From a virus: a stretch of 54,146 nucleotides of DNA. The position numbers and the translations under genes are program-made. The stretch lies in the IMG/VR virus record IMGVR_UViG_3300032242_001353, positions 1 through 54,146 of that record; one strand, 5' to 3'. Shown here piece after piece: positions 9,563 through 27,975 of this stretch; position 1 is the stretch's first letter, and each line of letters starts with the position of its first letter. The notes under the pieces were generated by a model. The model was not told where the DNA came from. It saw only the letters and a list, made by a program, of their open reading frames with translations, and did no database searches.

Positions 9563-10025
9563 CACCATAACTCCATATCTCTTTTTTATATTCATCTTCC
9601 CAATAATCATAATACTTTGTTTTCTTCAAAGTATTTCTGGCAACCATTAATTTACCTTTTGGTTGCGCCAGAATTATTGGATATTCTTCATTGCCTGTAC
9701 TAACACCATTGATAAAACCGGGTTCACTAGGATGATCTTTTAGAAAGATTATATCCGAAAAACTTTTGTTTAACCGGCCAATTATATCAATACAATCTTG
9801 ATTTGTCAAGTTCTTTGTAACATTAAAGAATATGATTACCTCATAATCTTCCGTGTTAGCTTCCATATACCGAGATATGTAATCTTCTACCTCATAACCA
9901 ATATATGACCAAAATACCTTTTTATCTTCTAAGGCTTTCTTGGCAAATGGACATATTGAGAAGCCACCAAGTTCATCTCTTTTCTGAGATAATCTTTTCA
10001 CCCATGCAATTATATTTTCTTCCAA
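9543..10025 (-). CDS. Conserved hypothetical protein, 160 aa, TTG start
   Basis: The frame has no ATG at its beginning; a TTG at 10025 with GGAG eight bases upstream fits best and overlaps the primase end by 16 bases. The sequence reads as a compact alpha/beta protein: GGFSICPFAKKALEDKKVFW, then YEVIIFFNVTKNLTNQD and FLKDHPSEPGFINGV. The CPFAKKAL block looks conserved, with one Cys that could be functional. I recognise it only as a recurrent unknown of aquatic T4-like phages. Confidence 0.65.
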   Translation of the reverse strand: MEENIIAWVKRLSQKRDELGGFSICPFAKKALEDKKVFWSYIGYEVEDYISRYMEANTEDYEVIIFFNVTKNLTNQDCIDIIGRLNKSFSDIIFLKDHPSEPGFINGVSTGNEEYPIILAQPKGKLMVARNTLKKTKYYDYWEDEYKKEIWSYGDESRID

Positions 10026-11023
10026 TTCACAAACTCCGCTTTAGCTCTCAGATTCACAAATGTATGGTTACTTATGATGTCTTGGATTTCATCTGGTGAG
10101 AACCCATCCAGTACCATCTCATTAATGTCTTTAGAATCAATCATTTCTGGCCATATTACTACATTGAAATGATTTTCAATTGATTTATCAATAATTTTCA
10201 CCAATTCTTTATTGCGTGGTTCATTGTCATATACCAATGTGACCTTTGTCTTATCATATATCTTGGTAATTGATTCCAAGTTAGAATCGGCAGTGGCCAC
10301 CGCATTTTCTAGAAATAAGGAGTCAATAGGACCTTCCACCACATAGATCATCTTCTCCGGGTCTATCCTATCAAGTCCAAAGACTTTGTGGCCGTCAGCA
10401 TGTAGTTTTACAGTGATATACCGCATCTTGGATTCACCAAGAGCTCTACCCTGAATGGCAATAAGTTCTTTGTCTTGATTGTAGAATGGAAGAATCAATC
10501 GAGGGTCATCCTCTTTTAAATTCTCTTTCTCAATACCAAGAGATTCTACAAACTTCTTAAAGTCTGGTGCAAAGTATAGGTTCTTGTGGTGTTCAACAGG
10601 AATCTTTCTACCATTAACGTAATCTTTGGCATAATGGCCATCTGGTAATGAATCGATTGATTCTAGTTCAAATTTTGTTTTCTTGAATACTGGTGTTGTC
10701 TTGTATTCATCAAATGTAGGTTTCTTGTAGTTATTGTTACCAGTCTCACCATCTTTAAATCTTTCCAGTGCATACTCTTTGACAAGGCGTGAATCCAATT
10801 TATCAAGGAAATTATAAAAGGTAGTGGATGCACCACAGTTGTGGCACATATAGAAATAGTCGTTTTTCTTACGGTAAACATACCCACGTGATTTGGTTTT
10901 ATTCTTTTCAGAATCTCCACAAAGTGGACACCGAAAGTTATAAAGGTCAGTTTTCTTTTGAGTAAACCTTTGTAACTTCGGTGATACCATTAATAGGAAT
11001 TTACGATCAATATAGACACTCAT
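10010..11023 (-). CDS. 61: DNA primase (T4 gp61-like)
   Basis: 337 aa with an N-terminal zinc site (CPLC about residue 33, CHNC about residue 60) and a TOPRIM core: MIYVVEGPIDSLFLENA (catalytic Glu) and VTLVYDNEPRNKE (Asp acidic motif). It synthesises RNA primers on the lagging strand in the gp41/gp61 primosome. Its own sigma-70 promoter lies at 11052-11080. Confidence 0.92.
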   Translation of the reverse strand: MSVYIDRKFLLMVSPKLQRFTQKKTDLYNFRCPLCGDSEKNKTKSRGYVYRKKNDYFYMCHNCGASTTFYNFLDKLDSRLVKEYALERFKDGETGNNNYKKPTFDEYKTTPVFKKTKFELESIDSLPDGHYAKDYVNGRKIPVEHHKNLYFAPDFKKFVESLGIEKENLKEDDPRLILPFYNQDKELIAIQGRALGESKMRYITVKLHADGHKVFGLDRIDPEKMIYVVEGPIDSLFLENAVATADSNLESITKIYDKTKVTLVYDNEPRNKELVKIIDKSIENHFNVVIWPEMIDSKDINEMVLDGFSPDEIQDIISNHTFVNLRAKAEFVNWKKI

Positions 11024-13467: not shown

Positions 13468-13722
13468 TTATCTTGTCAGTTGTAATATACTATCTTGTCC
13501 AGTTTTTTCTATTTTAATCCAGCCGTTGTTACCGAACTTGTAACCTTCTTTTTCTGATACTGATACTTTTAGTCCTTCTAAATTCTGTACAATATACTTA
13601 GCTAAACTATTGTTATCCAAACCATTAACTTTTAATAACATTATATTTGAAACTATTGAAGATGTTACTTCTAAACCAAATCTTTCTTCAACAAATTTTT
13701 CTATATCACTAAAGTCAATCAC
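13468..13722 (-). CDS. Hypothetical protein, 84 aa
   Basis: It begins MIDFSDIEKFVEERFG, with a short helix that weakly resembles the head-targeting leader of neighbouring proteins (ends FVEE). The rest forms an alpha/beta pattern with GWIKIEK near the end. It overlaps the 56-aa gene by ATGA. No family recognised. Confidence 0.6.
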   Translation of the reverse strand: MIDFSDIEKFVEERFGLEVTSSIVSNIMLLKVNGLDNNSLAKYIVQNLEGLKVSVSEKEGYKFGNNGWIKIEKTGQDSILQLTR

Positions 13723-13889
13723 TTGGGTGCCTTTCTGAAGAATGTAGGATATTTCTTTTTACGTTTCTTCATATTAACAGCAGTAGCACTAACTGGATCG
13801 GTTGCACTTTGTGGTCCTGTTACATTAGTTGGACCTGCTGCAGCAACACCACCGGCCATTTCTGTTACGAACTCTTTGAATGTTTTCAT
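13719..13889 (-). CDS. Small basic protein with capsid-targeting-like leader, 56 aa
   Basis: The start at 13889 gives MKTFKEFVTEMAGG and forms an ATGA overlap with the preceding stop; an ATG four codons earlier also exists. The first ten residues match the T4 internal-protein leader type (T4: MKTYQEFIAE). The rest is Ala/Gly/Thr/Pro-rich, ending in a Lys/Arg-rich tail (KKRKKKYPTFFRKAPK). A small, basic, DNA-compatible head protein is a reasonable guess. Confidence 0.65.
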   Translation of the reverse strand: MKTFKEFVTEMAGGVAAAGPTNVTGPQSATDPVSATAVNMKKRKKKYPTFFRKAPK

Positions 13890-14773
13890 CTGCATTTCCA
13901 TTTACGTAATGCTAGTGCTTTTCTTGTTGGTTTACCATTTGGTTTCTTCATAGGTCCTTTCATACCGGACATACGAGCACAAAATGATTTTCTACGCTTG
14001 GCAGCCTTACTTCCTGGTTTTACTTTACCAGTAACAGCTTTCTTTAATTTTGATCCGGGATTTTCTCTACGATATGATGCAATACCTTTTGCATTTAATC
14101 CACCAGTAGGACTCTTTCCTTCTTTACGTTTCCATGCAGCAGATTCTTCTAACCATTCATATTGTTCATCTAGTTCTTCTTTACGATTTTCCCAATCAAG
14201 AAGTTCTTTAATTGTTTCGATATGGCCTTGTAGATAACCATGTTCCATACGCATCTCTGGAGATGTCATTGATAACATACGGTCTAATTGGTCTTTGATA
14301 TTTTGTGCCATCAAAAGATAACCCATGTCATCTTCTTTTGGTGAACCTTTTTTCTCTTTCAAGTGTTTCTCGATGAAGAAGATACAATCTTGTAATTTGG
14401 CCATGCCCTCAAATAAATCATACTCATCATCTTCAATCTTATCTTCAATGTCGTGGTATAATTTTGTTGCTGTTGGACACACATGAAAATAATTTGTGTC
14501 GTAATCAAATACTGTTACTTCATGATCCGGCATATCATCATCGTCATCTTTTTTTGCTTCCCAAATAACTTCAACTTCTTCTTTGGTACTTCTCCAACCA
14601 CCACCCATCGCTTTGTATTTTTTGGATGCCCAAGCATTAGCGTAAGCAGAAGGATAGACAGCAAACTTTGATTTTGCTGCGGCCTTAGCACGAGCCCATT
14701 TTTCAGGTTGTGTTGGCTTATTTTTTTCTTGTAGAGATTGTATTTCGTTTATGAATTTATTAAATGGTTTCAT
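13886..14773 (-). CDS. Basic protein with targeting-like leader and two phage/virus domains
   Basis: The 295-aa protein opens MKPFNKFINEIQSL, a leader with an I-x-E cleavage-type end. Residues about 22-60 (WARAKAAAKSKFAVYPSAYA) form a small basic domain seen in many phage and giant-virus proteins. The middle is helical and acidic. The C-terminal 80 residues (WKRKEGKSPTGGLNAKG, SFCARMSGMKGPMKK, RKALALRKWKC) resemble the DUF6321 type, which is Arg/Lys-rich with conserved Cys. Domain names are from memory. The charge and leader suggest a DNA-binding head protein. Confidence 0.75.
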   Translation of the reverse strand: MKPFNKFINEIQSLQEKNKPTQPEKWARAKAAAKSKFAVYPSAYANAWASKKYKAMGGGWRSTKEEVEVIWEAKKDDDDDMPDHEVTVFDYDTNYFHVCPTATKLYHDIEDKIEDDEYDLFEGMAKLQDCIFFIEKHLKEKKGSPKEDDMGYLLMAQNIKDQLDRMLSMTSPEMRMEHGYLQGHIETIKELLDWENRKEELDEQYEWLEESAAWKRKEGKSPTGGLNAKGIASYRRENPGSKLKKAVTGKVKPGSKAAKRRKSFCARMSGMKGPMKKPNGKPTRKALALRKWKCR

Positions 14774-15274
14774 TTATTTTGTCCTAACATTTATTGCTTT
14801 ACCACGGCGTTCTGGATTTGGATCTTCACGGCGCTTTCTTCGTGCGGCCTTCGCTCTACCTTCTTTACCTAAAGAATTTGCTTTTGATCTAGGTAAACAT
14901 TTTGGTTTTCCTTCACCTGGATTCCTAGCACATTGACCTTTGACATTGCCTTTGGTATCCATACGAACCCAGTCTTGTTTAAACCATTTGCGTAAATCTT
15001 CATTAATCCAATCATCAGGAGTTTTTCCGTGTTTAGATTTAAAATCATCATGTAAATCTTTTCCTGTTATGCCATGATTTTTAGATATTTTTGTCATCAA
15101 CTTATCAATACTATCATAGTCGTGACTATCTAATTGTTTCAACCCATCTTCTAATTCTTTTACGTGATCTTCTTTTTTACAACTTCCTGGAGAAAAAGGA
15201 GTTTTACCTGGTACAGGTTTATAACCAGACCAACATCTACCTTTTTCGTTTACAAATTGTTTGAATGTTTTCAT
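14774..15274 (-). CDS. Basic protein with targeting-like leader (DUF5872-like C-terminus)
   Basis: 166 aa starting MKTFKQFVNEKGRCWSGY, again a leader ending V-x-E. The middle contains a helical GITGKDLHDDFKSKHGKTPDDW segment. The C-terminus (RKWFKQDWVRMD, KCLPRSKANSLGKEG, AARRKRREDPNPERRG) matches a recurring Cys/Arg/Lys-rich module of large DNA viruses and T4-like phages. It sits one base from the following gene. Likely a DNA-associated virion protein; the domain name is from memory. Confidence 0.7.
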   Translation of the reverse strand: MKTFKQFVNEKGRCWSGYKPVPGKTPFSPGSCKKEDHVKELEDGLKQLDSHDYDSIDKLMTKISKNHGITGKDLHDDFKSKHGKTPDDWINEDLRKWFKQDWVRMDTKGNVKGQCARNPGEGKPKCLPRSKANSLGKEGRAKAARRKRREDPNPERRGKAINVRTK

Positions 15275-15657
15275 ATCTGCCTTAATATCGCTGCGACATT
15301 AGTTTCTATGGGAATTTTGGTAACATCAATATCGTAACCCTTTATTCCTCTTACCTCATTTGGCAGTATATTTAGATAAGCCAGGAATGTTTTTAATATA
15401 TCATAATCTCGTTCATCTATCTTATAGAATAGTATTCTTGATGTTGCTTCTATACCAAAAACATTATTCAATAAGATAATATGATTGAGTATTAATCTTT
15501 CTTTTAAAATCTTAGTGACCTTATACCTGCGAAACAAGCGTTTAAGATACTTGGTTCTTTTAAGGTCACTTTCAAATTCTGAAATAATGCACAACGGTGA
15601 AATGTAACACTTCATCGCATATATCACAAAGTTGTCATCATTAAGATCGTCAAACAT
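15271..15657 (-). CDS. Conserved T4-like phage structural-region protein, 128 aa
   Basis: MFDDLNDDNFVIYAMKCY starts a mainly helical protein with a basic block (KRTKYLKRLFRRYKVTKILKERL in overlapping parts) and a hydrophobic LNHIILLNNVFG core. I recognise the pattern from aquatic T4-like phages, where it lies next to small structural genes (DUF7207-like, from memory). It shares a one-base TAATG junction with the gene before it. Its exact role is unknown. Confidence 0.65.
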   Translation of the reverse strand: MFDDLNDDNFVIYAMKCYISPLCIISEFESDLKRTKYLKRLFRRYKVTKILKERLILNHIILLNNVFGIEATSRILFYKIDERDYDILKTFLAYLNILPNEVRGIKGYDIDVTKIPIETNVAAILRQI

Positions 15658-16139
15658 TATTGTCTCGGATCCAACTCACCTTCAGGTTCAATAATATCTT
15701 CATCTTTTACATCCAACAAATCATTTAATCTTTCTTCATCGACCACAACAGCAAATGTTTCATAGAAACCATCTTCACCTATTCCATAATTAAAATATAG
15801 ATAGTATTCATCTTCTGTTGAATGATTTGGTGTTGTTTGTGTGCCATCTAATTCAGCACCAAAAGCACCACCAAATTGGTTGATGACAACAACTTCTTCA
15901 CTTTCTTCTTCATCTTGAAACACTACTCTCGGTAAAGTAATACCATACATTGATAATACTTTACTAATTCTCAACCATGCACTATATGGGTTTATCCATT
16001 GTCTTGATAGTTCTAATGTTAAATTTAGATTTATCTCATTGCGTGTATCGGCCTTTGATAAATCAATTTTCTCTTTAGACAATGAAATGACGGGTACATT
16101 GTACCCGCCTTCCAGGATAAACTCACGAAAACCCAGCAT
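15657..16139 (-). CDS. Hypothetical late protein with leader MLGFREFILEGG
   Basis: 160 aa. The start has a leader-like helix ending I-L-E-G-G, a good T4 gp21-type site. The body is beta-rich and acidic (FQDEEESEEVVVINQFGG; DEYYLYFNYGIGEDGF). Unlike its neighbours it is not basic. Junctions at both ends are TAATG-type, so it is translationally linked to the structural protein before it. Could be a processed virion protein; no family assigned. Confidence 0.6.
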   Translation of the reverse strand: MLGFREFILEGGYNVPVISLSKEKIDLSKADTRNEINLNLTLELSRQWINPYSAWLRISKVLSMYGITLPRVVFQDEEESEEVVVINQFGGAFGAELDGTQTTPNHSTEDEYYLYFNYGIGEDGFYETFAVVVDEERLNDLLDVKDEDIIEPEGELDPRQ

Positions 16140-16789
16140 TATAGTCCGCCAAAGATTGCGTTAGCAGATGTATTACCAGATTGAGTATTTGCAGCAGTTG
16201 GGTTAGCAAGAGCAACGAGTGTTTCTTTTAAGAAACGAACTGTACCGTCATTGTTGATCTTACGAGTGATTCTGTTCCAACCAGTATTTAAATTACCAAG
16301 TTTAGTATTGGCTACATTAGAACCTGCACCATACAGTGTACCTTTGGTATTTCCCAGACGAGTAGTTGTGACTAGAATAACGTCATTTGCATTGAAAGAT
16401 ACTGGTTGATTTGTGTGATTAATACCAGTACCAAACCAAACTGTTGCACCGTTGGCCAATGTTCCCATAGTAGGATTTACTAATGTGAGAACACCGTTTG
16501 CACGGTCAGTAACAGAAGCAACTGTATTGTTTGAACGATAGAAATCGATATCGTTTTGGTCAACGATTGTCAAATCTTTAAATAAACGAGATACTGAATT
16601 ATTAGCATCGTTAGAATAAACATACAGGCCAGTATTAACTGAAGCTGGAATTGCTTTATTAAATTTGATGGTAGTAACACCAGCTGTTGTCGCATTGGCT
16701 GTAACCAATGATGCAACTGGTCTAACTTCTCTTAATTCTGGAAACAAAGGAATACTGTTCGCTTTGTCGTTATTTCCCCATAATGGCAT
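16139..16789 (-). CDS. Putative virion structural protein, 216 aa
   Basis: It begins MPLWGNNDKANSIPLFPELR and is dominated by Thr/Asn/Val/Gly beta-rich stretches with repeated V-x-x-x-NG turns, typical of surface or tail-associated phage proteins. I recall similar WGN-type proteins in aquatic T4-like virions. A late promoter box (16822-16829) and a strong SD (AAAGGAGAAAAAA) directly precede it, implying high late expression. Confidence 0.7.
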   Translation of the reverse strand: MPLWGNNDKANSIPLFPELREVRPVASLVTANATTAGVTTIKFNKAIPASVNTGLYVYSNDANNSVSRLFKDLTIVDQNDIDFYRSNNTVASVTDRANGVLTLVNPTMGTLANGATVWFGTGINHTNQPVSFNANDVILVTTTRLGNTKGTLYGAGSNVANTKLGNLNTGWNRITRKINNDGTVRFLKETLVALANPTAANTQSGNTSANAIFGGL

Positions 16790-16820
16790 TTTTTTCTCCT
16801 TTAAACCTAGGGTTTGTTTA

Positions 16821-18143
16821 CTATTTATCTTTCTTATCTTCCTTCTTTTCTTCTTTTTTCTTTTCGTCTTTTTTGGTAGGGTCAGGTTGACCTGGACGAA
16901 CTCTCATCGATGGGTCTATTTCTACAGTATCTCTACCTTGACCCGTCAATGTGGTACCACCAGACACTACAGCTGCAGCAGAGGGTTTCTTTTCACCCGT
17001 ACTGTCATCTTTGTCTGCTTTTTCAAACTTTGGTTTCTTTCCGTATGTTGCAACTGATTTGTCCTCTTTTTCATGGTCATATAAATCTTCTTTGACCATT
17101 TTTTTGTTCTTATAGATGGACTTAATCATTTTTGCTGACTTTGACATACGATCCTCAATCTCCATACCAACTGTTTGTGTTGGTGCTGCCGGATCTTGAT
17201 ACTTATCTTCTCTCATACCATAAGAATAAGCACGTGTCTTTGTACCACCATGCCAAGTTGGATCTTCAGTACCTTTGTCTGTTGTTACTTTGACTGTATG
17301 ACTTGGGTTCTTCTTCTTATGTTCGTTAGCGTGTTTCTCAGCAGATTCTCTATCTGGGAACTTCATAATGTGTTTACCAGATGGTGTAGTCTTTAATGCG
17401 TTATTCACTTTGATGTAGTGAATCGCATCTTGTTTCTTACTAGACTTCTTCATGAAGTCGAGTAGGCCTTCTTCTATCTCAGCTTCTTCTTTTTTAATTG
17501 GTGCAGAAACTAATTTGTTATCCTTCTTATAAGGATTACTTGTCTGGCCTTTTGATGTGTTTGGTGCAACTTTTAGTTTCTCTGTTTCTTCTTTTGCATA
17601 CAGATGACCATATTTCTTCTCATGCTCTTCACGGTCTTTCTTTTGTTTAGCAATTAAATCGGTTAAACGTTTAGCACCTTTATCAGGATCGTAACCAGAC
17701 TTCTTCAGACCAGATTTAAATTTCTCTTGTGGAGTTTGTGTTTCTTCTGGAGTTAATTGACTCATTTGAGATTTAGATTCATGACGAGAACCTGGTCCAT
17801 GTGGTGTCTTAACTTCTTTATAGGCAGAAATCGTCTTAGTCAAAGAACTAGCTCTCTCTTTTGTTTTACCACCAGCACTTTGAGTTGCCATATGGCCAAC
17901 ATCTTCTGGAACATATTCTTCAACCTTACGATCTTGCATCCATTTCTGAAATTGTGTAGATTTAGAATGTGCGACCTTTTGATTTGTACTAACAAATCTT
18001 GGATCAATACCTCTAGACAATAGATACTTGTCTAATGCACTTTCAGCAAGACCAGCTTTGGTAGACCAAGGATCCATTGGATTGGTACCAAATGTCTCCT
18101 TGCCCTTAACTAATTTTTTAATGTAATTAGCTTTGTTTTTCAT
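16821..18143 (-). CDS. Large basic low-complexity protein, 440 aa
   Basis: It begins MKNKANYIKKLVKGKETFG, then a DKYLLSRGIDPRFVSTNQKV block seen in other aquatic T4-like phages. A long Lys/Glu/Ser-rich disordered region follows, with a small folded module (SGKHIMKFPDRESAEKHANE) and a Lys-rich tail. Possible L/I-x-E cleavage sites are scattered through it. It is the third of four large late genes with touching ends. Composition suits an internal head protein; no enzyme motif was seen. Confidence 0.65.
   Translation of the reverse strand: MKNKANYIKKLVKGKETFGTNPMDPWSTKAGLAESALDKYLLSRGIDPRFVSTNQKVAHSKSTQFQKWMQDRKVEEYVPEDVGHMATQSAGGKTKERASSLTKTISAYKEVKTPHGPGSRHESKSQMSQLTPEETQTPQEKFKSGLKKSGYDPDKGAKRLTDLIAKQKKDREEHEKKYGHLYAKEETEKLKVAPNTSKGQTSNPYKKDNKLVSAPIKKEEAEIEEGLLDFMKKSSKKQDAIHYIKVNNALKTTPSGKHIMKFPDRESAEKHANEHKKKNPSHTVKVTTDKGTEDPTWHGGTKTRAYSYGMREDKYQDPAAPTQTVGMEIEDRMSKSAKMIKSIYKNKKMVKEDLYDHEKEDKSVATYGKKPKFEKADKDDSTGEKKPSAAAVVSGGTTLTGQGRDTVEIDPSMRVRPGQPDPTKKDEKKKEEKKEDKKDK
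16822..16829 (-). promoter_or_regulatory. T4-type late promoter box GATAAATA
   Basis: The minus strand reads GATAAATA overlapping the stop of the 440-aa gene. It drives the structural protein at 16789 and probably everything down to the holin. Confidence 0.65.
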
Positions 18144-19522
18144 TATTGATTCCCAATTTTTCCTAAAGTCTCAGTTTTAACACGATGTAATGCTCTCTTT
18201 GCAATATCTTTTGCACGAGAAACAGGACTTGAAGTTGTATTCTCACCTTTAGCAAAGTCTGGTTGTGAACCAACACCAGCATCCATCATTGGATCCTTTC
18301 CTTCACCAACAACTGCACCCGGCTTAATTTCAACTTCAGGTGAATGTGTTACTCTTGAAGCACGTGCAGGTGTAGAAGATAAACTTGGTTCATCATCTTC
18401 TGGATTAGGACGCTTGATACCATCACCTTCAATCTTTACTTTGAAAGATTTGAAATCATTTGACTTTGCAACACCTTGTACACGACCACGTAACATATCA
18501 GTTGCAGTGTCCGAATCAGCTGATGCTTGATGTGAAATGGTTGATACTTCATCAATTTGTTCAACATCTTCTTTGATTGGAGTATGTCTTTCTACACGTG
18601 ACAAACGGCAACCATCTTTACATTTTTGGTGTGCTTGACGAATAGCATCTTCATCGTCTTTTGCAACAAACAGATTCATTCCTGTCCACTCACCTTTTTC
18701 ATTTTCATAGTGAGCAGCATGAGTATGAGATTCATTCTTTTCTTGTAATTCGAATGCCTCTTTCATCTTCTTTTGTTTGTCCCACTCTTTGTTTGTCTTT
18801 ACATTATATTCTTTTCCACCAGGTCCAATATCTGCAACTCTTGTACCAATTGGTTTATTTGTTTTTACAACTGCTGGTTTAGTTTCTTCACCCATGGCCT
18901 GCTTAGTTGCAGTTGCATACATTACTTCTTTCCAACGAGTACCATATTTCTTCTTAAAGTAATCAGTCTTGTCCTTCATTGACATTACGATTTTTTCTTT
19001 TTTTTTAGTCTCAGCCGATGTCATTTCACGTTCAAGTAAACGATCTTTGAATGATGAATCTTCTTTAACAGTAGACTTTTGGCCTTTGTGCATAGTTACA
19101 TTGTGATGGCCAACTTCTTTCTTAGCAATCTTCTTTGCTTGAGGAGCTGTAACACAATCAGCATCTTCTTTCATATCTTTTGCTGGTTCATCTTTCTGTT
19201 TACCACCACCATACTTTGAACCTTGTTTCTTACCAGCACCACCACTTGGTTGTGGTTTGTTTTTATCTTTTAGGTATTTTTCCATATCATCGAAGCCTTC
19301 TTCCATCTCGATAGCTTCTTTATGTGACTTTGCAGTAACAGGATACTTTTTACCTTGAAACTCAAAGTGTGACTGGTTTGCTTTCTTAGCAGCATGAGCG
19401 GCCTTATGGAAACCTGTTTCATCAAGGTCACCATCGTTTATCATGCGTTTCTTTTCAGTGCCTTCAAGAATTTTCTTGACTGCTTCGGCTACTGGATCGG
19501 TTTTTAATTTGTTGTAGAACAT
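18143..19522 (-). CDS. Large basic low-complexity protein, 459 aa
   Basis: The N-terminus (KTDPVAEAVKKILEGTEKK) is helical and ends I-L-E-G, a plausible prohead-protease site about 20 residues in. It continues with FHKAAHAAKKANQSHFEFQG, Lys-rich linkers, and two short folded modules (HYENEKGEWTGMNLFVAKDD; QAHQKCKDGCRLSRVER). Much of it is disordered. Ends touch both neighbours through TAATG junctions. Candidate internal head protein; no enzyme motif recognised. Confidence 0.65.
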   Translation of the reverse strand: MFYNKLKTDPVAEAVKKILEGTEKKRMINDGDLDETGFHKAAHAAKKANQSHFEFQGKKYPVTAKSHKEAIEMEEGFDDMEKYLKDKNKPQPSGGAGKKQGSKYGGGKQKDEPAKDMKEDADCVTAPQAKKIAKKEVGHHNVTMHKGQKSTVKEDSSFKDRLLEREMTSAETKKKEKIVMSMKDKTDYFKKKYGTRWKEVMYATATKQAMGEETKPAVVKTNKPIGTRVADIGPGGKEYNVKTNKEWDKQKKMKEAFELQEKNESHTHAAHYENEKGEWTGMNLFVAKDDEDAIRQAHQKCKDGCRLSRVERHTPIKEDVEQIDEVSTISHQASADSDTATDMLRGRVQGVAKSNDFKSFKVKIEGDGIKRPNPEDDEPSLSSTPARASRVTHSPEVEIKPGAVVGEGKDPMMDAGVGSQPDFAKGENTTSSPVSRAKDIAKRALHRVKTETLGKIGNQ

Positions 19523-21459
19523 TATTTTGCTCCTTTAATTTTCTTCTTTTTAATTTTGAGACCGTAATCGTTTTGTATGTTGCGATTCACATCTTTATAT
19601 GAATCCATACCTTCTTTATTACTGGCACCACCTAATACGCCACCTAGTCCAGAATCACCGACACCGGGGTCATCAATGGCTTCTTTTACTTTTCTAAACT
19701 TACTAAAAGGTTTCTTTTCTGCTAGTGGATTCGGTTGCGGACCTTTCGTTAGTCCTGCAAAATTTGACACATCAGCATTACTTGCTGTCGGTGTAACCGT
19801 ATCTTCACTGTATGTTTGATTTCCTAAGCCGGCGCCTGCTGCGGCACCCTGTCCACCTGCTCGGGTATCATACTCAGGTCCAATGCCTGGTGGTCTTCCG
19901 AGTTTAGATGCACTTATCGATTTATCGCCAAATTTCTTTCTCTTTATTTTGTCTTTGTCTTGTTGGAAGTTGGACTCTTTTGGCTCTGGCCTGACCGTGA
20001 TCGTTGGGCTTTTGGCTTCTGTGTACGATCTGAAGGTGTAACCGCCTCGCTTTTTATTTCCATCCCACTTGATGTCTCCGGCACTTGGGTCTCCTGCTCG
20101 GTTGTCTGGCTTGATGTCTGCTGGACTATCGGCTCTTTCACCTGAGCTGTTCTTTCTGTAAACTCCAACGGATGCTTGTCGCTTTTCGTTGAACTTTTGA
20201 ATAAACTTAGGAGTTTGCTTAACATTTTGTGTTTCCTTGAACAAAGATTTAATTGACTCATTTATATTTAACATATTATGGTTTTCTAACCAAGAATATG
20301 CAATATCATTCGTTGTTTTAGTTTCAATAAAGGTATTTATCGTTTGATAGGTGTCGGTTATTGATTCCTCAATATCTTCCAAAGATGCACTATTATCAAA
20401 GTGGATAAAGTTCTCAAACAGATTTGAATATACTTCCTTGTTCTTTTGTGCTTGTTGCCACTTGTCTTGTCTGACTGATTCGATAATCATCTTTGTCAGT
20501 TTTGCATTTCGATCTTTGCTAGCCTCATTTGTGGTATCTACAAATACCATCAAGGTTTCATAACCCAATTCTTCTAGTTCTTCCTTGATGTGAAGTATCT
20601 TTTCTTCAGTATCAGCAGGACCATTAATGATTAGAGGTGAACGGTTACGCAAGGCTTCTCTACGATAGTCGTTTGATTTCTCAGATAATCTTTGTTTATC
20701 ATTCAAGTAATCCAGTGCTTGTACTGAATTGAGTTCTACTGCCTTTGCTTCAGCAATGGCCTCACGTAAGACAACATCTTTACCAGAACCAGGTCCACCA
20801 GTAACAAATACTGCTTTAAACATACCACGATTAACAGATTCGTTTAGACCCATACCTTTACGTACATCACGCATTAATTCTTTTGCATGATGATCTGGCA
20901 CATGACTAGGTACACCTTGTCTAAATGAACTGAAATCATTGTTCTTAGCGTGTTCACGCATTTTAGTACCAGACATACCTTCAGCACCTTCAGCATCAGG
21001 ATCACGGTGACCAGCAGAAACTACTTCAATCTTTTTGAAGTGATAAGGTACATGGCCATCTTTATTTGGCTTACCATTATATTGATGTAACTTATCATGA
21101 TATTCTTTTACACGATCTGAACCAGCAACAACAACTAAGTGGTCATGTCCTGCTTTATGTAACTGCTCAGCAGCATGAAAGATTGTTGGATGAGTTTTAG
21201 ATGAAGCCTTGAAATTAACACCTGGAGCATATCTCTTTAGATGTTTAATTTTTTGTGCAGATGATAATGGATTCTTCTTACTATCTTGTGAATGAGAAAT
21301 CATTACAACGTGTTTAGCACCACGTTTCTCTGCCTCAGACTTTACCTTGTCAACAAGTTTTAGATGACCAGTTGTTGGTGGATTCATTCGACCAAAGGCC
21401 ATCACGACAGGCTTACTTGTCTTTTCTTTTTCCTCTACTAACTCTAGGAATCTTTTCAT
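19522..21459 (-). CDS. NMNAT-like nucleotidyltransferase fused to P-loop kinase, with leader
   Basis: A 645-aa multidomain protein. A short leader MKRFLELVEEKEK is followed by a nucleotidyltransferase (about residues 17-190): FGRMNPPTTGHLKLV holds the H of the HxGH-type motif, and MSGTKMREHAK is the ISxTxxR motif. Residues about 210-360 form a P-loop kinase (VFVTGGPGSGKDVV, Walker A). A long disordered, Gly/Pro/Lys-rich tail follows. The order NMNAT then kinase resembles NadR, the bifunctional NAD-salvage enzyme, also known in phage KVP40. The targeting-like leader and late operon location are odd for a metabolic enzyme. Confidence 0.8.
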   Translation of the reverse strand: MKRFLELVEEKEKTSKPVVMAFGRMNPPTTGHLKLVDKVKSEAEKRGAKHVVMISHSQDSKKNPLSSAQKIKHLKRYAPGVNFKASSKTHPTIFHAAEQLHKAGHDHLVVVAGSDRVKEYHDKLHQYNGKPNKDGHVPYHFKKIEVVSAGHRDPDAEGAEGMSGTKMREHAKNNDFSSFRQGVPSHVPDHHAKELMRDVRKGMGLNESVNRGMFKAVFVTGGPGSGKDVVLREAIAEAKAVELNSVQALDYLNDKQRLSEKSNDYRREALRNRSPLIINGPADTEEKILHIKEELEELGYETLMVFVDTTNEASKDRNAKLTKMIIESVRQDKWQQAQKNKEVYSNLFENFIHFDNSASLEDIEESITDTYQTINTFIETKTTNDIAYSWLENHNMLNINESIKSLFKETQNVKQTPKFIQKFNEKRQASVGVYRKNSSGERADSPADIKPDNRAGDPSAGDIKWDGNKKRGGYTFRSYTEAKSPTITVRPEPKESNFQQDKDKIKRKKFGDKSISASKLGRPPGIGPEYDTRAGGQGAAAGAGLGNQTYSEDTVTPTASNADVSNFAGLTKGPQPNPLAEKKPFSKFRKVKEAIDDPGVGDSGLGGVLGGASNKEGMDSYKDVNRNIQNDYGLKIKKKKIKGAK

Positions 21460-22457
21460 TGATCTTCTGACTTTCTAAAAACTAATGGTTTATGGCCTAA
21501 TGTTTTAGCCATTGCAGATAAATGTTCATCATCATCTAAATCAACATGACTTTTATCTGCGTGTTTAACCATAAATTGTATGGTACGTTTCATTGGATCA
21601 TCTGTTTTTTGACGAACTCTCCATTGCCCTTGGCCTGTCATCTTAGGTAGGCCATGGCCAGTTTTATCTTTTGCACCAACTCTATATGTTCCATGTTTAC
21701 CAACTTGAACAACATCAACATGATGATCTTTTAAGTATGAGTTTGCTGGTTCTAAATCATCGTGGTCGAATTGAACAATCTTAGCTTTAGGACCACCAGG
21801 TACTAGACCTCTTGGTTTGTGGTGCTTGTTCATGTGTTCAATGATACCTTTTGCTTGAATGTGTTTTGCATAACCTGGACGATTCTTCCTATTTTCTTCA
21901 GGTACGTGCCATCCACCTTTTTTCTTATCGTATGCAATGGTGAGTTGGCCGAATGCTGCCGTTTTACCTAATTTTGTTTCACCTTGTAATGCAGATTCAT
22001 TATGTACTTGACCTTTATGCTTGGTCTTATTTTTCTTATTGATTAAATTGAAATCATTACCAGATGAGAAACCGGCAGCATCACCTTCCATCAATCCATG
22101 TTTCTTTAATCGTTCAACAAATTTTTGTTCGTAATCAAAACCTTTATTCTGTTTCAATTCACCTGGCTTATGAATCTTTGAAACAGGTATCCAATGTTTC
22201 TGTTTAGTGTTTTCATCTGTGGCATGAACATGAAGTTTACCATCTAGATACTCAGATTTATGTAAACGTAACTTAGAACCAGCTGGAACTCCTTCGTGTT
22301 CTTTACCTAATGTGTGAGTATATTCTTTTGAACCAATATGTGGTGTGATATACTGTCTTTCATGTCTAGGTGCATCCATACCAACACCTTTGATGAATCC
22401 ACGACCCATCTGTTCATCAAGTTGTTCACAAAAAGATTTAAATTTTAAAAAGTTCAT
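21456..22457 (-). CDS. Putative PD-(D/E)XK-fold nuclease-like protein, basic
   Basis: 333 aa starting MNFLKFKSFCEQLDEQMG (leader-like, L-D-E). A KOW/SH3-like HWIPVSKI segment comes first, then a possible restriction-endonuclease core: FDYEQKFVERLKKHG (helix with Glu), SGNDFNLIN (Asp), QGETKLGKTAAFGQL (ExK then Gln). That E-D-ExK-Q order fits the PD-(D/E)XK superfamily, but it rests on motif spacing alone. The rest is His/Lys-rich. It overlaps both neighbours by ATGA. Could nick or repair DNA after injection, or act in packaging. Confidence 0.55.
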   Translation of the reverse strand: MNFLKFKSFCEQLDEQMGRGFIKGVGMDAPRHERQYITPHIGSKEYTHTLGKEHEGVPAGSKLRLHKSEYLDGKLHVHATDENTKQKHWIPVSKIHKPGELKQNKGFDYEQKFVERLKKHGLMEGDAAGFSSGNDFNLINKKNKTKHKGQVHNESALQGETKLGKTAAFGQLTIAYDKKKGGWHVPEENRKNRPGYAKHIQAKGIIEHMNKHHKPRGLVPGGPKAKIVQFDHDDLEPANSYLKDHHVDVVQVGKHGTYRVGAKDKTGHGLPKMTGQGQWRVRQKTDDPMKRTIQFMVKHADKSHVDLDDDEHLSAMAKTLGHKPLVFRKSEDQ

Positions 22458-23653
22458 TTTCTCACCTTTAAAAGATTAGCTCTTGCAAATTCAGCACGAT
22501 TAACCAATTTAGTTGGTTCACCAGCATGATTGACAACAAATCCTTCGGGTTTGCTTCTCTTATTACCTATATGATGTTCAAGCCCACCTTCATGTTGTTC
22601 TAGGTGAGATACTAACACATTTTTTGCCTTTTGTAAATGGTTATGCATACTTAAAAGGTTATCATAGTGTTGTGTATTTGCATCAATATGATTATGGTGT
22701 TGTTTTAAACTTGCACCAGAGAGTGATTGGGCTCTTGATACACCAGCTGGTGTTTTTAATTTTTTAACTTTTGAAGCAAGGTCTTTATCATGTTTATTTT
22801 GTAAGAATGATTTAAAACCTTCTGCATGAGGTTCTTCTCCTGTTCTTACTGTATGATTAATGTATTGTTCTAAATGGCCACCTGAACCACGATGCATTTC
22901 TGTTGCTTTATACATTGTGCCTCTGTTAGCATCATGTATTTGTTGTGCAGCATGAATGTGTTCTTTATATTCTTGTTGTGCTTCTTCAGGATAATGAATT
23001 TGTTTTGTATCATGATTTGCAGATTGATGCCACACATCTGGATGATGAGAGAAATTATGTAAATCAGGATGCGGATCAGCTGACATGGTATGGATGTCTT
23101 TACCATGATATTGAGTATGTACAATTATACCCATTTTAGAATTCTTAATCTTTTCTCCCATATCACCTTTTGCAGTATAGCTAATTGTGTTAGGAGTAAA
23201 GGAAACTTTGCCACCTTTTTTCTCTTTTTTATCGCCTTCAGAATACATTAGATCACCCTGATACACACCAGACTTAGGTGAAATCTTACGTAGGTGATTA
23301 AGTGCTGAATGTAGTTTTTCCACCAGACCAGGTGCATGGCCATGGTTCTTCATTATATCTTTATGTGTATAGTTAATTTTTGGATCTTTGTTAAAGGCCG
23401 ACTTACTTGCCACAAAGAACTTACCTGTTTCTGGATGGTGTCCGAAAACAACAGCAGGAGAACCATCATATTTCATGGTCAACGCACTACTGTGGCCACC
23501 ACTTTTTATGTGTTCATGTGCCTGATTCAAAGCATTTACTGCGTGTTTAAACCCCTCAGAACCATGTTGTAATGGTCTGTCCTCGGCATGAACGATATGC
23601 TTGAGTTTTTCTCCCTCGGCTTCTTCTACGAGAAACTTTTTAAAAGATAACAT
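22454..23653 (-). CDS. Ligase-fold nucleotidyltransferase-like protein (DUF6267-like) with leader
   Basis: 399 aa. It opens MLSFKKFLVEEAEGE, a targeting-like leader ending L-V-E. The region TMKYDGSPAVVFGHHP contains K-x-D-G, motif I of covalent nucleotidyltransferases (DNA/RNA ligases). SGVYQGDLMY fits motif III, SKPEGFVVNH motif IV, and KLVNRAEF motif V. A His-rich helical insert lies between. The family is, I believe, DUF6267 of aquatic phages, which is not experimentally defined. It is the first gene after a strong late promoter (23696), so it is made late and perhaps packaged. Confidence 0.7.
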   Translation of the reverse strand: MLSFKKFLVEEAEGEKLKHIVHAEDRPLQHGSEGFKHAVNALNQAHEHIKSGGHSSALTMKYDGSPAVVFGHHPETGKFFVASKSAFNKDPKINYTHKDIMKNHGHAPGLVEKLHSALNHLRKISPKSGVYQGDLMYSEGDKKEKKGGKVSFTPNTISYTAKGDMGEKIKNSKMGIIVHTQYHGKDIHTMSADPHPDLHNFSHHPDVWHQSANHDTKQIHYPEEAQQEYKEHIHAAQQIHDANRGTMYKATEMHRGSGGHLEQYINHTVRTGEEPHAEGFKSFLQNKHDKDLASKVKKLKTPAGVSRAQSLSGASLKQHHNHIDANTQHYDNLLSMHNHLQKAKNVLVSHLEQHEGGLEHHIGNKRSKPEGFVVNHAGEPTKLVNRAEFARANLLKVRK

Positions 23654-23695
23654 TGTTTTCCTTCAGAATTGCAACACACTTTGGTTGCCCTGTTT

Positions 23696-23703
23696 TATTT
23701 ATA
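23696..23703 (-). promoter_or_regulatory. T4-type late promoter box TATAAATA
   Basis: Perfect TATAAATA on the minus strand, 42 bases upstream of the ligase-like gene. It heads the late operon of large basic proteins. Confidence 0.8.
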
Positions 23704-23707
23704 CAAC

Positions 23708-24415
23708 TTATATGTAGTGTAGATTTTCCCGTTCAAACATACAGTCCCCTTTGGCTGCATCGTTTCGTTTTTCTAGGTGAACCTTAATTTTTAGTGCTTC
23801 CGCAACAGCATATATTAGACTTTGGTTTGCAACCAGATGTCCAGAATGTTTCAATATTAGTGCAAGTTCCAAGGCATTATTTAATGGATAATAGGGTATT
23901 TGACCATACAGACCCATAAAAATACTGTGTTCCTCCATGGTTCCGACAAATACAGGTTTAACATTTTGATCTGCCAATAAATCTACATAAAACTGATTCT
24001 TCTGTTCACGGTCATGTAAATATATAGTTCTAGACACCAACGTTATGCCATCAAATGGCATGGCCAGTCGCATATCTGGGATCTCTATCCATGGCTTATT
24101 GTGAAAGTCAACATCGTTTGGTTTCTCAAAAAACTCAAAATAACTTCCAGCCAATGTTCCATGGTATCTAACATTCATTATTGATCTAAATTTATCCAGA
24201 TCATAATCCACTTCTTCACCAGACCAGGTTCTTATTTCACCAATAAAGTCTTGTGCTTTTAATAAAGGTATCAGAAAGTTGTGGGCTTCTTTGTTGAAGA
24301 AATATTCTGGGAAATCTTCTAGGTATAGTATTTTCGCACCACCCATTTGTTTGATAAAAGGTAATGATAGTATCACATCTCCCATTTTACCACGATGTTT
24401 GAATGTTAGTTCCAT
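23708..24415 (-). CDS. GT9 (heptosyltransferase)-like glycosyltransferase
   Basis: 235 aa. The N-terminus MELTFKHRGKMGDVILSLPF matches the G-x-x-G-D-x-x-x-x-P start of the heptosyltransferase family, and SGHLVANQSLIYAVAEAL is a GT-B C-terminal nucleotide-binding pattern. It probably transfers a heptose or similar sugar. It is shorter than bacterial WaaC/WaaF (about 320 aa), so one lobe is trimmed. Last gene of the sugar operon, overlapping the next GT9-like gene by ten bases. Confidence 0.65.
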   Translation of the reverse strand: MELTFKHRGKMGDVILSLPFIKQMGGAKILYLEDFPEYFFNKEAHNFLIPLLKAQDFIGEIRTWSGEEVDYDLDKFRSIMNVRYHGTLAGSYFEFFEKPNDVDFHNKPWIEIPDMRLAMPFDGITLVSRTIYLHDREQKNQFYVDLLADQNVKPVFVGTMEEHSIFMGLYGQIPYYPLNNALELALILKHSGHLVANQSLIYAVAEALKIKVHLEKRNDAAKGDCMFERENLHYI

Positions 24416-25116
24416 CTCGTACCTTCGAAATCCAACCAGTATGATTCTAATTTACCTTTGCCACCTAACATATGAAATGGCATTGTATGCATCAGTCCTC
24501 TGTTTGACATAACATAACGTAAACTTTCTGGACCACCAACTAAAGACCATGCAAAGTGAGATGTGCCAGTATCACCACCAATAAACCTTCTACAAGTTTT
24601 GATGTGCTGTAAGTTATCTAAGAAATTTGTACTTATCGTGTAATTACTATAGTCACCTGGTGGTAACATTTTCTCATCAGTAATACAGATCACTCTTTCC
24701 CATTCAGGATAATTGACAAAGTATTTTTCTATCTTTTCAAAGAAAACTTCTTTAGGCCAATTACGATATGTGTTATACGGTGCATCAAAGAGTGGAAACA
24801 TTACAACTTTATTTGTAACTTTTTCTTCGTTTGGTATAGAAACTAAATCACCACAGATTGCTCTAAAGTCCCACACATTAACTCTATTCCACGTTAATTC
24901 TTGCATACCAACATTCTCAGCAAAATAGTTTGTATTCTCTTTCATGTAAGAGAAGAATTGTTGGCAGTGTGGTGCTTCATTGATAGTTCCTGGTTGCATA
25001 AAGAATTTCAACTCAGGATGATTATTCCTTAGATATTGAATGATATTACATATACCAACAATATCACCAACACGAGCTGGACCACCAAAAGTACCAGGTT
25101 TAATGTTTAATATCAT
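24406..25116 (-). CDS. GT9-like glycosyltransferase
   Basis: 236 aa beginning MILNIKPGTFGGPARVGDIVG, the G-x-x-GD core of GT9 proteins. The C-terminal half contains RRFIGGDTGTSHFAWSLVGG, the donor-binding GDTG-x-x-H pattern of heptosyltransferases. It overlaps both neighbours by a few bases. Its acceptor is unknown. Confidence 0.65.
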   Translation of the reverse strand: MILNIKPGTFGGPARVGDIVGICNIIQYLRNNHPELKFFMQPGTINEAPHCQQFFSYMKENTNYFAENVGMQELTWNRVNVWDFRAICGDLVSIPNEEKVTNKVVMFPLFDAPYNTYRNWPKEVFFEKIEKYFVNYPEWERVICITDEKMLPPGDYSNYTISTNFLDNLQHIKTCRRFIGGDTGTSHFAWSLVGGPESLRYVMSNRGLMHTMPFHMLGGKGKLESYWLDFEGTRWN

Positions 25117-25850
25117 TCGAAATCTTTTGCGTGTATTAGTTTAGATTTTCTATTTGCGTAGAAGTGTTTTTTGAAAATTGAGTTGATGTCTTTACCATTA
25201 TCCCAATTAATATTCTCACCGTTTCTAAATTCAGGATTCCAATCTTCTGCTTTCCATATAATAAACTGTTCTTTATTTAATAGGTCGGCCAATACAGATA
25301 CACCAGTTAGATTGGTGATAAATGGTTTTGTAGATTCTTTGATGTAATAACAATTAGTCAATAGATCATTATTGTAATCAAGGAAATTAAATTTGTCATT
25401 CATGTGTGATAGTACACCAGTTGCTCTGCGTGAATCAATATCACCAACGTTCCAACGATCACCAGCATAAGACTTATCATCGATAGGTAAATCTAACTTT
25501 GGAAATTTAATTTCAAAATCATCATCTACTTCAAATTTAAAATTGTAAGTATCTTTTAGAAAATTCTCATAACGACAGGTTTCAATAGGCCTAATAACGC
25601 TATTCCTATCTTCTCTGGTCCATGAACTCAGTACAACAACATTGTTATTGTATAAGAAAATCTCATCATCAAAATTAACATCAGAGAATAACTCTTGATA
25701 CATTAAGAATTCTTTAATGCCTTTGAATTTCTTTAATTCTTTTCGAATGATAAAATCTAATTTACCATAACTCTTAACAAGGCCTGAGATTACAGGTAAT
25801 GCATTTAGGAAATCACCTAAGTTACCAGTTGAATTAAGATATACTCTCAT
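25113..25850 (-). CDS. GT9-like N-domain protein
   Basis: 245 aa. The start MRVYLNSTGNLGDFLNALPV again shows the G-x-x-GD-x-x-x-x-P signature. The remainder is less conserved, and the GDTG donor motif is not seen. It may be a divergent GT9 enzyme or a partner subunit of the two next to it. ATGA-type overlap with the following gene. Confidence 0.5.
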   Translation of the reverse strand: MRVYLNSTGNLGDFLNALPVISGLVKSYGKLDFIIRKELKKFKGIKEFLMYQELFSDVNFDDEIFLYNNNVVVLSSWTREDRNSVIRPIETCRYENFLKDTYNFKFEVDDDFEIKFPKLDLPIDDKSYAGDRWNVGDIDSRRATGVLSHMNDKFNFLDYNNDLLTNCYYIKESTKPFITNLTGVSVLADLLNKEQFIIWKAEDWNPEFRNGENINWDNGKDINSIFKKHFYANRKSKLIHAKDFE

Positions 25851-26634
25851 TATAATCCTTAAACGCTACAAACCAATCATCTTCTTTTACAGGATGCAAT
25901 TCAAACACTTCAGGTAAAGAAAGATATGACATCAATAGTAATGTTTGGTCATCATCAATCAAACCACTCTTTAACAAGTTGTTCAGGTTATGATTCATCA
26001 TTGAATAAAGATTATTCCAACCTGTTCTACCTGATACAATACATGGTCCAGTCATATACACAATATTGTTAGCAATGATATTGATTAGTGGTCGACCATC
26101 GTATTCACGTAGATTGAATAGATGAATCTTGTACTTATCAAAATTATATTGCCACCTAGTCTTACCGTTTAATGCATCAGCAGTTCTACAATAACCGAAA
26201 TCCATCCATGCAACCAATTCATTAGTTGCAAAACCATTCTCGATGGCCTGCATTGCAAAGGTAGATTTTAATGAATTGACCAAAACATAATCAGGATTCC
26301 AGTATTCTGGATTTGATCTTTGATTCTCACTGATCTTTGATTGATATTCTGGATTCTGTTGTACTTGAGAAATACGTTTTCTTAATTCATCATAATTATA
26401 CTTGAAATCAATTACAACTATTTCCGTTTTTCTGTCACCACGTAATTCTTTAACTCTACTTTCAAACTCAGGTGCAGTATAGACAACCATTTCATTTTCA
26501 AGTTTAGCCATGTGACTAAATCGTTCAAAGTAGGTGTCATTAGTTCTTTGTAGATAATGTGGCAAACCTTTATCAGGTGTCCATTCACCACGACCTATAT
26601 CAAAGAAGGCCGTTACAATTGTAATGTCATTCAT
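25834..26634 (-). CDS. HtrL/YibB-like glycosyltransferase-family protein
   Basis: 266 aa: ITIVTAFFDIGRGEW at the start, TYFERFSHMAKLENEMVVYT, and a later AWMDFGYCRTAD (D-x-G-x-x-R). This pattern fits the HtrL/YibB family linked to surface polysaccharide synthesis. It shares a start-stop overlap with the methyltransferase. Specificity unknown. Confidence 0.7.
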   Translation of the reverse strand: MNDITIVTAFFDIGRGEWTPDKGLPHYLQRTNDTYFERFSHMAKLENEMVVYTAPEFESRVKELRGDRKTEIVVIDFKYNYDELRKRISQVQQNPEYQSKISENQRSNPEYWNPDYVLVNSLKSTFAMQAIENGFATNELVAWMDFGYCRTADALNGKTRWQYNFDKYKIHLFNLREYDGRPLINIIANNIVYMTGPCIVSGRTGWNNLYSMMNHNLNNLLKSGLIDDDQTLLLMSYLSLPEVFELHPVKEDDWFVAFKDYNESIS

Positions 26635-27290
26635 TTCTTTTTCGCCACTATAGTTAAGATGTTAGGCCACATATCAACTGGTTTTCTAATTTCATCTTCT
26701 TCATTACCAACGTGTAGTATTTCATAATTTGCTTCAGTTAGTAAGCCAACTAAACCATGCATGTCAAAGTAATGGAAGTGTTCGTTGTCTTTCTTATGCT
26801 TCCATTTACTAAACCATTCTGGTCCTAGAAACTCATGGAACCAAGGCACAGATATAACCACATTCTTTGTTCTTAGGCCTTTTAAGAATGTAACCAAATC
26901 TTCATCTTCAATATGTTCAATTGAATCAAAGAATGTTATTACATCAACTTCAACTTCATTAATATCGTTGATACGTTGAACGCCTTTTGGTGCAGGGTAA
27001 TCTGATACATCATATGCATATGTCTTACATCTCATGTCACGGCAGTAATTTATAAATGCACCGTTACCATAACCAAAGTCACAAACAGAATTAAATTCTC
27101 TGACATGATTCTTCACTACATTCCAACGAATCCTCGACATTGCATCAGATGGTATTCTGTTATAGTAATTACTATACTCAATAGAGTACGTTGGACCAGG
27201 TCCAGTTCGTTCAACTTGATGCCAGTGACCAGGTCTTAATTGTTTAAAGTTATCAATCATAATAGTTTTTATATCCATGGACGATTTCAT
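26631..27290 (-). CDS. SAM-dependent methyltransferase
   Basis: 219 aa class I methyltransferase: FNSVCDFGYGNGAFINYC is motif I (glycine-rich SAM loop) and DVITFFDSIEHIED the post-strand-4 region. The C-terminal HFHYFDMHGLVGLL is typical of small-molecule or sugar methyltransferases of the Methyltransf_23 type. AAAGG five bases before ATG 27290 supports the start. It probably methylates a sugar made by this operon. Confidence 0.8.
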   Translation of the reverse strand: MKSSMDIKTIMIDNFKQLRPGHWHQVERTGPGPTYSIEYSNYYNRIPSDAMSRIRWNVVKNHVREFNSVCDFGYGNGAFINYCRDMRCKTYAYDVSDYPAPKGVQRINDINEVEVDVITFFDSIEHIEDEDLVTFLKGLRTKNVVISVPWFHEFLGPEWFSKWKHKKDNEHFHYFDMHGLVGLLTEANYEILHVGNEEDEIRKPVDMWPNILTIVAKKK

Positions 27291-27975
27291 ATTGACCTTT
27301 CAATGTATCTAAATCAAATGTCTTAGATACAGGAAAGATGTTGTACATTTTTTTATTGCCAGTATATGGTTTACCAGATAAAAAGAAGAAATATGTAGTA
27401 AAGCAGTCCAGCCAACCTAACGTAGGATACAGGTTATCCTGTATATTGTCTAGATTATTTTCAAAGAAATGATAAACTTTACCAAAATTTTGTAACACAG
27501 TTTCCACTTTAAATATACTACCACCACCACTACCATAAGAACGTGTCTTTGGTAGTGTGCCACAAAACTGTTCGCAGAAATTGATTAGTGGTTCTGGTAT
27601 AAGATTACCATCTACAATATCATGTCCTGCAATTTCCCAATCATCTTGCAATGTAACTTTATCAATTAGTACCACATCATCTTCAACCATCATAATATGT
27701 GTCGAGTTACATTTGAGGCAAGCAATATAGAACCTTTTCAACCACTCCAGAACTTTCTCTTTTCTGTATCCGTATGGTTGAACGGGATAACCTAAGTTAT
27801 CATTGCAATATAAAAAATCACAATTATATTTCTTGGCCAAATCGGTGTGGTCAACACCACCATCACCAATCAACATATAATAAGAATCAGGATAGAATTG
27901 CCTAATAGTCTGTAAGGAGAATTCTGTTGCTCTTTTATTATTATATACTGTACTGAAGAATGAAAGGGAGGTCAA
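27253..27975 (-). CDS. GT-A type glycosyltransferase-like protein
   Basis: 240 aa. The N-terminal SLSFFSTVYNNKRATEFSLQ plus IGDGGVDHTDL and the later HIMMVEDDVVLID (acidic metal/nucleotide motif) fit a GT2-like Rossmann fold. A Trp/Tyr/Phe-rich C-terminus could bind acceptor sugar. It overlaps the following methyltransferase start by 38 bases, strong evidence of coupling. Confidence 0.65.
   Translation of the reverse strand: MTSLSFFSTVYNNKRATEFSLQTIRQFYPDSYYMLIGDGGVDHTDLAKKYNCDFLYCNDNLGYPVQPYGYRKEKVLEWLKRFYIACLKCNSTHIMMVEDDVVLIDKVTLQDDWEIAGHDIVDGNLIPEPLINFCEQFCGTLPKTRSYGSGGGSIFKVETVLQNFGKVYHFFENNLDNIQDNLYPTLGWLDCFTTYFFFLSGKPYTGNKKMYNIFPVSKTFDLDTLKGQYEIVHGYKNYYD

Follow-up and report, generated by a model that had tools for sequence, protein, structure and literature searches.

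A late operon of a freshwater T4-like phage encodes probable head cargo with leaders of the capsid-targeting type

RESULTS

A locus of eleven genes with recurrent leaders

The window analyzed here is a 54,146-base IMG/VR fragment of an uncultured freshwater T4-like phage (IMGVR_UViG_3300032242_001353). Between positions 13719 and 23653 it holds eleven open reading frames (ORFs), designated A to K, several of which begin with a leader resembling the capsid targeting sequence (CTS) of T4. A search of the phage collection with the window at the DNA level found no relative. At the protein level, the closest cultured relatives are Methylophilales phage Melnitz and Pelagibacter phage HTVC008M, both Kyanoviridae, and a DUF6267 search retrieved 63 related viral contigs. 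The features of the locus are as follows.

13719..13889, minus strand: A, 56 aa; leader MKTFKEFVTE, then GPTNVTG, then KKRKKK; architecture like that of T4 gp61.1
13886..14773, minus strand: B, DUF6321 (E 5e-23), leader MKPFNKFINE, K/R-rich C-terminus
14774..15274, minus strand: C, basic protein, leader MKTFKQFVNE (strict rule, see below)
15271..15657, minus strand: D, DUF7207 (Pfam E 4e-35), without leader; syntenic locus marker in Kyanoviridae
15657..16139, minus strand: E, acidic protein, leader MLGFREFILE then G (strict rule)
16139..16789, minus strand: F, MPLWGNND protein without leader; probable virion protein
16821..18143, minus strand: G, 440 aa, basic, low-complexity, without leader
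18143..19522, minus strand: H, 459 aa, basic, low-complexity; N-terminal helix ending KILE/G, a different leader type
19522..21459, minus strand: I, cytidylyltransferase/NMNAT-like domain and P-loop domain, leader MKRFLELVEE
21456..22457, minus strand: J, basic, deviant leader MNFLKFKSFCEQLDE; putative PD-(D/E)XK-nuclease-like motif GNDF...GETK, read by eye
22454..23653, minus strand: K, DUF6267, leader MLSFKKFLVE; ligase/nucleotidyltransferase-like motifs K61-x-D-G, E370-G, and K382
23671..23688, minus strand: stem-loop in the 5' untranslated region, GCAAC-CAAAGTGT-GTTGC, between the late promoter and the ribosome binding site
23696..23703, minus strand: late promoter -10 element, T4-type, TATAAATA, about 43 nt upstream of the first leader gene

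An earlier sequence-only reading had described the locus proteins as basic or low-complexity. Ten are indeed basic (isoelectric points of 8.8 to 10.4), and E is acidic (4.1). G and H are rich in [ILV]xE sites. Homologs of D (DUF7207) were located in Melnitz, HTVC008M, S-SZBM1, and S-CREM2.

The leaders follow the T4 targeting rule

Mutagenesis in T4 has defined a CTS of 10 residues, in which residues 4 and 7 serve targeting and residues 8 and 10 serve processing, and the prohead protease gp21 cleaves after L/I-x-E (PMC9026906). A fixed, strict rule was taken from T4 (hydrophobic at 4 and 7, I/L/V/M at 8, E at 10), with V and M at position 8 added to the T4-derived form; a looser rule had been tried before it, and another relaxed rule was run and marked post hoc. 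The fixed rule matched 6 of the 11 locus ORFs versus 1 of the 72 other ORFs in the window (Fisher p = 8e-6), the single outside match being ORF 27972 (MKTLVEIIEE). When N-termini were shuffled, 0.25 matches were expected for the whole window. The strict rule is met by A, B, C, E, I, and K, while J meets it only in its homologs. Applied to the whole of T4 as a control, it returned only four proteins, IPII, IPIII, gp24, and gp61.1; the first three are gp21 substrates, and gp24 is cut after residue 10 (PMC9958956).

The window leaders match the experimentally defined CTS position by position, which upholds the proposal that they are of the type found on T4 internal proteins (IPs) and Alt. Every leader named in the sequence-only reading was recovered at the coordinates given there. 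Its claim of at least seven leader ORFs in a row holds for the leaders and not for their contiguity, since the leaderless ORFs at 15271, 16139, 16821, and 18143 are interspersed. The J leader, said to end in QLDE, is present in a deviant form, and its homologs have regular leaders (MKSFLEMLSE, MISFKSFLKE, and MLTFLSFLGE). The "related ILE-G site" of H exists as an [ILV]xE near residue 20, mostly retained in H homologs; its helix is a different one, not of the CTS type. A CTS-type leader for G and H is ruled out by the N-termini of their homologs.

Selection acts on the leader

The leader is kept in 29 of 30 homologs of K, 25 of 30 of I, 12 of 15 of B, 8 of 10 of C, 6 of 6 of A, and 4 of 5 of J. 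Among E homologs, one leader is retained (MIKFHDFVVE) and one is lost (MFRFNEFVRN). D, F, G, and H have no CTS-type leader in the window or in any of their homologs (17 for G), and these four genes fall outside the leader argument. In the K leader of 24 DUF6267 homologs, M1 is invariant, F4 (in both codons) and E10 are present in 24 of 24, position 7 is F, Y, or L, and position 8 is L or I with several codons, while positions 2, 3, 5, 6, and 9 vary. The AF2 model of K has a mean predicted local distance difference test score of 86.6, yet residues 1 to 15 score below 50. Constraint on positions 4, 7, 8, and 10 with mixed synonymous codons, on proteins that are otherwise unlike, indicates that selection acts on the leader itself.

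These data bear on a different explanation, namely that the leaders are ordinary amphipathic helices, or translation-start sequence inherited by gene duplication, and that the proteins act in the cell without being packaged. Short hydrophobic N-termini are common, and B and C do share related segments. Against this, the conserved positions are exactly those that T4 uses for targeting and cleavage, and their codons vary synonymously; the leader is shared by A, B, E, I, J, and K, whose bodies are unlike; and the T4 rule picks out known gp21 substrates.

Homologs of the leader proteins are found in virions

In S-SZBM1 a syntenic operon is present (DUF6267, cytidylyltransferase, a 457-aa protein, ..., DUF7207), and the published virion proteome of this phage includes SSZBM1_140, _139, and _136 (PMC9146016). 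A cytidylyltransferase or related NMNAT-like protein has likewise been found in virions of S-SM1 (PMC3037559), S-SCSM1 (PMC9602691), and S-CREM2 (PMC10665884). The I homologs S-SZBM1_140, which begins with MRFRQFIIE followed by A, and S-CREM2 gp154 are both leader-bearing and virion-detected. In S-CREM2, the strict rule matches 5 of 219 genes, and the products of four of the five are in the virion proteome (p = 0.012 for all genes; p = 0.0016 for nonstructural genes). The four virion-detected products and their encoded leaders are a SAM hydrolase (MKDFDSFLEE), an APH-like kinase (MKRFDAFLTE), gp13 (MKDLHSFLTE), and the cytidylyltransferase (MKNFSSFLTE); a term search of the S-CREM2 paper turned up no mention of a leader (PMC10665884). 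S-CREM2 gp136 has MQTFSMFFSE.

Profile searches extended these matches to other locus proteins. The B profile matches virion-detected S-CREM2 gp137 (E 4e-35), and the C profile matches virion-detected S-CREM2 gp160 (E 3e-27) as well as gp137 and S-SZBM1_139 (E 7e-8). F has a weak profile match (E 8e-4) to virion-detected S-SZBM1_136 and occupies the same position. By profile search, neither H nor G has detectable homology to S-SZBM1_139, which is a virion-detected protein. The leaderless DUF6267 homologs S-SZBM1_141 and S-CREM2 gp87 were not detected in the published virion proteomes.

Packaging is well supported, because homologs have been detected in virions, including four of the five S-CREM2 leader proteins, and the leaderless DUF6267 proteins have not. 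The sequence-only reading had placed these proteins in the head, and homologs in published proteomes agree with this for B, C, and I, and for A through gp160. Late proteins are abundant, so carry-over could account for the proteomes if the leaders were ordinary helices. The coincidence of leader and virion detection in S-CREM2 argues otherwise and, with the conservation described above, makes the unpackaged alternative very improbable.

Two further proteins of relatives were noted. Virion-associated S-CREM2 gp12 (7704-10313), which is Cas9-like, has a CTS-like RFASFMAE at residues 18 to 25, as if it were head cargo. A RimK-like ATP-grasp ligase of Melnitz (82-1131) starts with TQKFSQFITE and is another candidate packaged enzyme.

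A prohead protease and its cleavage rule are present in relatives

The sequence-only reading called for a gp21-like protease. A gp21 gene was sought in the 54-kb window and was not found. Of 18 related records, 6 contain the gp21-type protease family PF03420, as do the two complete relatives checked, Melnitz and HTVC008M. Relatives carry gp21 inside a gp20-gp21-gp22-gp23 module. The propeptides of their major capsid proteins (MCPs) end with LNE, LME, LSE, or LGE directly before the conserved part, indicating that the cleavage rule is also retained.

In one relative, the gene between portal and protease starts with the leader-like MKNLKEFLAE. This would suit an alternative in which the locus proteins are parts of the prohead core or scaffold that are cut and largely expelled at maturation rather than delivered, as would the low-complexity, core-like, and [ILV]xE-rich character of G and H. 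Against it, the enzyme domains are conserved in their catalytic-type residues, and homologs persist in mature virions; we consider this alternative unlikely.

A late promoter and a covarying hairpin precede the operon

The late promoter predicted at 23696 was confirmed as an exact TATAAATA, whereas the one predicted at 16822 is only GATAAATA, with one mismatch. An exact TATAAATA lies about 50 nt upstream of DUF6267 in 25 of 32 distinct relatives, versus 1.1% of random 120-nt windows. The element shows no enrichment over the entire window (4 occurrences versus 5.8 expected), so that its conserved position alone carries weight. A hairpin, GCAAC-CAWAGTGT-GTTGC, follows the promoter and precedes the DUF6267 ribosome binding site, with one per locus. 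All five pairs covary, both partners having changed; 99% of cells are paired, and 0 of 500 shuffles reach the score. An Rfam search with the hairpin gave no match.

Three locus proteins resemble enzymes

I matches CTP_transf_like (E 4e-8) and phrog_3041 (E 1e-63), and its P-loop domain scores weakly. NadR has the same order of a cytidylyltransferase/NMNAT domain and then a P-loop. By these matches, I would have a role in NAD or nucleotide metabolism; that it supplies NAD as infection begins is a guess, one that cyanophage authors have also made.

K matches DUF6267 (Pfam E 1e-96; 324.7 bits against a cut-off of 27), and its KxDG, EG, and terminal K residues are invariant in 24 homologs. With the K model, the weak best Foldseek matches are mostly DNA, RNA, or tRNA ligases (E no better than 0.0097; template-modeling score about 0.2), and a DUF6267 sequence search of the PDB returned nothing credible. 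K is a putative covalent nucleotidyltransferase that would join nucleic acid ends. In L045 and L047, the DUF6267 ORFs are about 590 aa long and include a match to the cytidylyltransferase domain, so that a single leader precedes a natural fusion of the two.

In J, E110 and D135 are invariant in homologs, and an E-x-K pattern was read by eye. A fold search returned only SH3-like partial matches and no clear one, so J is a putative PD-(D/E)XK-type nuclease by motif reading. The literature search, which covered few subscription journals, found no report on DUF6267, DUF6321, or DUF7207.

Protein A resembles the capsid N-terminus of relatives

In A, the leader is followed by MAGGVAAAGPTNVTGPQSA and, at the end, the basic tail, and the protein resembles the cleaved MCP N-terminus of relatives (LNE, then ASDGPTNVTGGVQN). 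The order is an [ILV]xE site (FVTE), MAGG...GPTNVTG, and KKRKKK. The MCP of this phage lies outside the window, and similarity was measured in relatives, T4, and S-CREM2. T4 gp61.1 aligns over 26 residues with gp23 residues 68 to 93 and ranks first among 343 T4 ORFs against gp23 (score 69, next 39; z = 14.8). S-CREM2 gp160 is the best of 298 ORFs against its own MCP (score 95, next 39; z = 20.2). In eight Straboviridae, the copy of the capsid N-fist scores z = 12 to 21 against the phage's own MCP. Most of these copies have an [ILV]xE before the segment and a K-rich tail after it, the KVP40-like ones and Aes508 having only V-x-E forms, and the gp61.1 genes adjoin or lie near primase gene 61 in 8 of 8.

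In closer relatives the copy is short, with z values of 6.2 (G005, rank 1 of 132), 5.5 (Melnitz), 3.6 (G009), and 3.4 (HTVC008M). The A profile matches S-SZBM1_134 (E 2e-11), whose N-fist similarity to its own MCP falls short of significance (z = 1.8). The copies track family: those of Straboviridae match Straboviridae capsids, and the S-CREM2 copy matches cyanophage capsids. Matches to gp61.1 occur in 1437 phage records, and in some records and in PHROG 696 such proteins are labeled major capsid or head protein. T4 gene 61.1 (18966-19130) encodes a perfect CTS-like leader, a copy of the gp23* N-fist, and a lysine-rich tail. The N-terminal domain of long gp61.1 (CC31/KVP40-type, phrog_2086) has homologs in Melnitz gp29 (22079-22687) and HTVC008M gp141 (25551-26153), so that this domain can either stand apart from the capsid-mimic segment or be fused to it.

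The N-fist makes contact with neighboring subunits, and in the five subunits that face the portal it is disordered (PMC9958956, PMC7136217). These features suggest, speculatively, sites that a mimic could use. We tentatively propose, at a little under an even chance, that A, T4 gp61.1, and S-CREM2 gp160 are packaged mimics of their own capsid's N-fist, mostly freed by the prohead protease, that sit in N-fist sites of the shell, such as those surrounding the portal vertex, with the basic tail holding DNA or other cargo. In A, the N-fist copy would bind the N-fist site of the shell and the tail would tether the shell to DNA.

A less probable reading, still to be taken seriously, is that A and gp61.1 are not functional mimics and stem from a partial duplication of the capsid gene followed by decay. 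The similarity is limited to about 30 residues and is short in Kyanoviridae except S-CREM2, as decay would have it. Decay accounts poorly for the spread over 1437 records, for the vicinity of gene 61 in every one of the eight Straboviridae with, usually, [ILV]xE before and a K-rich tail after, and for the presence of the copy-bearing S-CREM2 gp160 in the virion. The literature, in a search that covered few subscription journals, mentions gp61.1 only at the level of annotation, with no functional report, and the capsid-mimic protein is apparently previously unreported.

Neighboring genes

About 11 ORFs (23708-32703, minus strand) separate the cargo operon from the replication genes; several look glycosyltransferase-, nucleotidyltransferase-, or methyltransferase-like by eye, and they are possibly genes for surface-sugar modification. 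Adjoining the replication genes, the protein at 34590-35693 (minus strand) matches PF14236 (Druantia DruA; 34.6 bits against a cut-off of 27) and, over its whole length, phrog_19197.

DISCUSSION

The locus is, with high probability, a late operon of head cargo in which A, B, C, E, I, K, and probably J are tagged with a CTS. The leader would dock each protein in the core of the assembling prohead through residues 4 and 7. The leader would then be removed behind E10 ([ILV]-x-E) by a prohead protease of the gp21 type, so that the mature cargo, whether basic protein or enzyme, stays with the packaged DNA until it exits the head along with the genome at infection. Cleavage at E10 in this phage and delivery into the host cell are both inferred steps.

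Several points weigh against this interpretation. Virion presence would follow from homologs in the proteomes of other phages rather than from that of this phage; of two S-SZBM1 leader genes, only one has a virion-detected product, and the authors of the S-CREM2 (PMC10665884) and S-SCSM1 (PMC9602691) studies warn of carry-over in CsCl purification. The genes for gp21, gp22, and gp23 of this phage lie outside the fragment. T4 CTS processing is defined for I or L at P3, so that V at P3 here is an extension, and 4 of the 11 locus genes (D, F, G, and H) are leaderless.

The ten-residue rule appears to predict head-carried proteins in T4-like phages of lake and sea. It is a likely reason for the presence of cytidylyltransferase, SAM hydrolase, APH-like kinase, and possibly the Cas9-like nuclease in cyanophage virions, enzymes that the authors of those proteomes could not tell from contamination. 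The cargo question thereby becomes testable by rereading existing mass spectra. If the capsid-mimic reading is right, even T4, the most thoroughly studied phage, would have a head component that has escaped examination.

The principle of packaging is known, and its use on a conserved enzyme operon is a new cargo set. The locus shares with T4 IPI to IPIII and Alt the key positions of the ten-residue N-terminal leader, the late class of its genes, and the basic character of their products, and its phage group has a T4-type prohead protease. It differs in that the cargo is larger, enzymatic, and encoded in one conserved late operon, the leaders are often F..F(L/V)xE, and ejection is presumed. The cyanophage virion cytidylyltransferase/NMNAT (T4-GC190) has an N-terminal domain homologous to that of I and the same neighborhood, with the leader on the S-SZBM1 and S-CREM2 copies, whereas I has an extra P-loop domain and a long C-terminal region. 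T4 gp61.1 (phrog_1823/phrog_2086) and A are alike in leader, apparent copy of the capsid N-terminus, K-rich tail, and position upstream of primase gene 61; the capsid N-terminus of this lineage is itself different, and for that reason the copy in A (GPTNVTG) is the shorter one. The ejection proteins of phiKZ and SPN3US resemble the locus in scheme, with a gp21-like prohead protease cutting a propeptide after Glu and cargo released with the DNA, and differ in their S/A-x-E sites and long propeptides.

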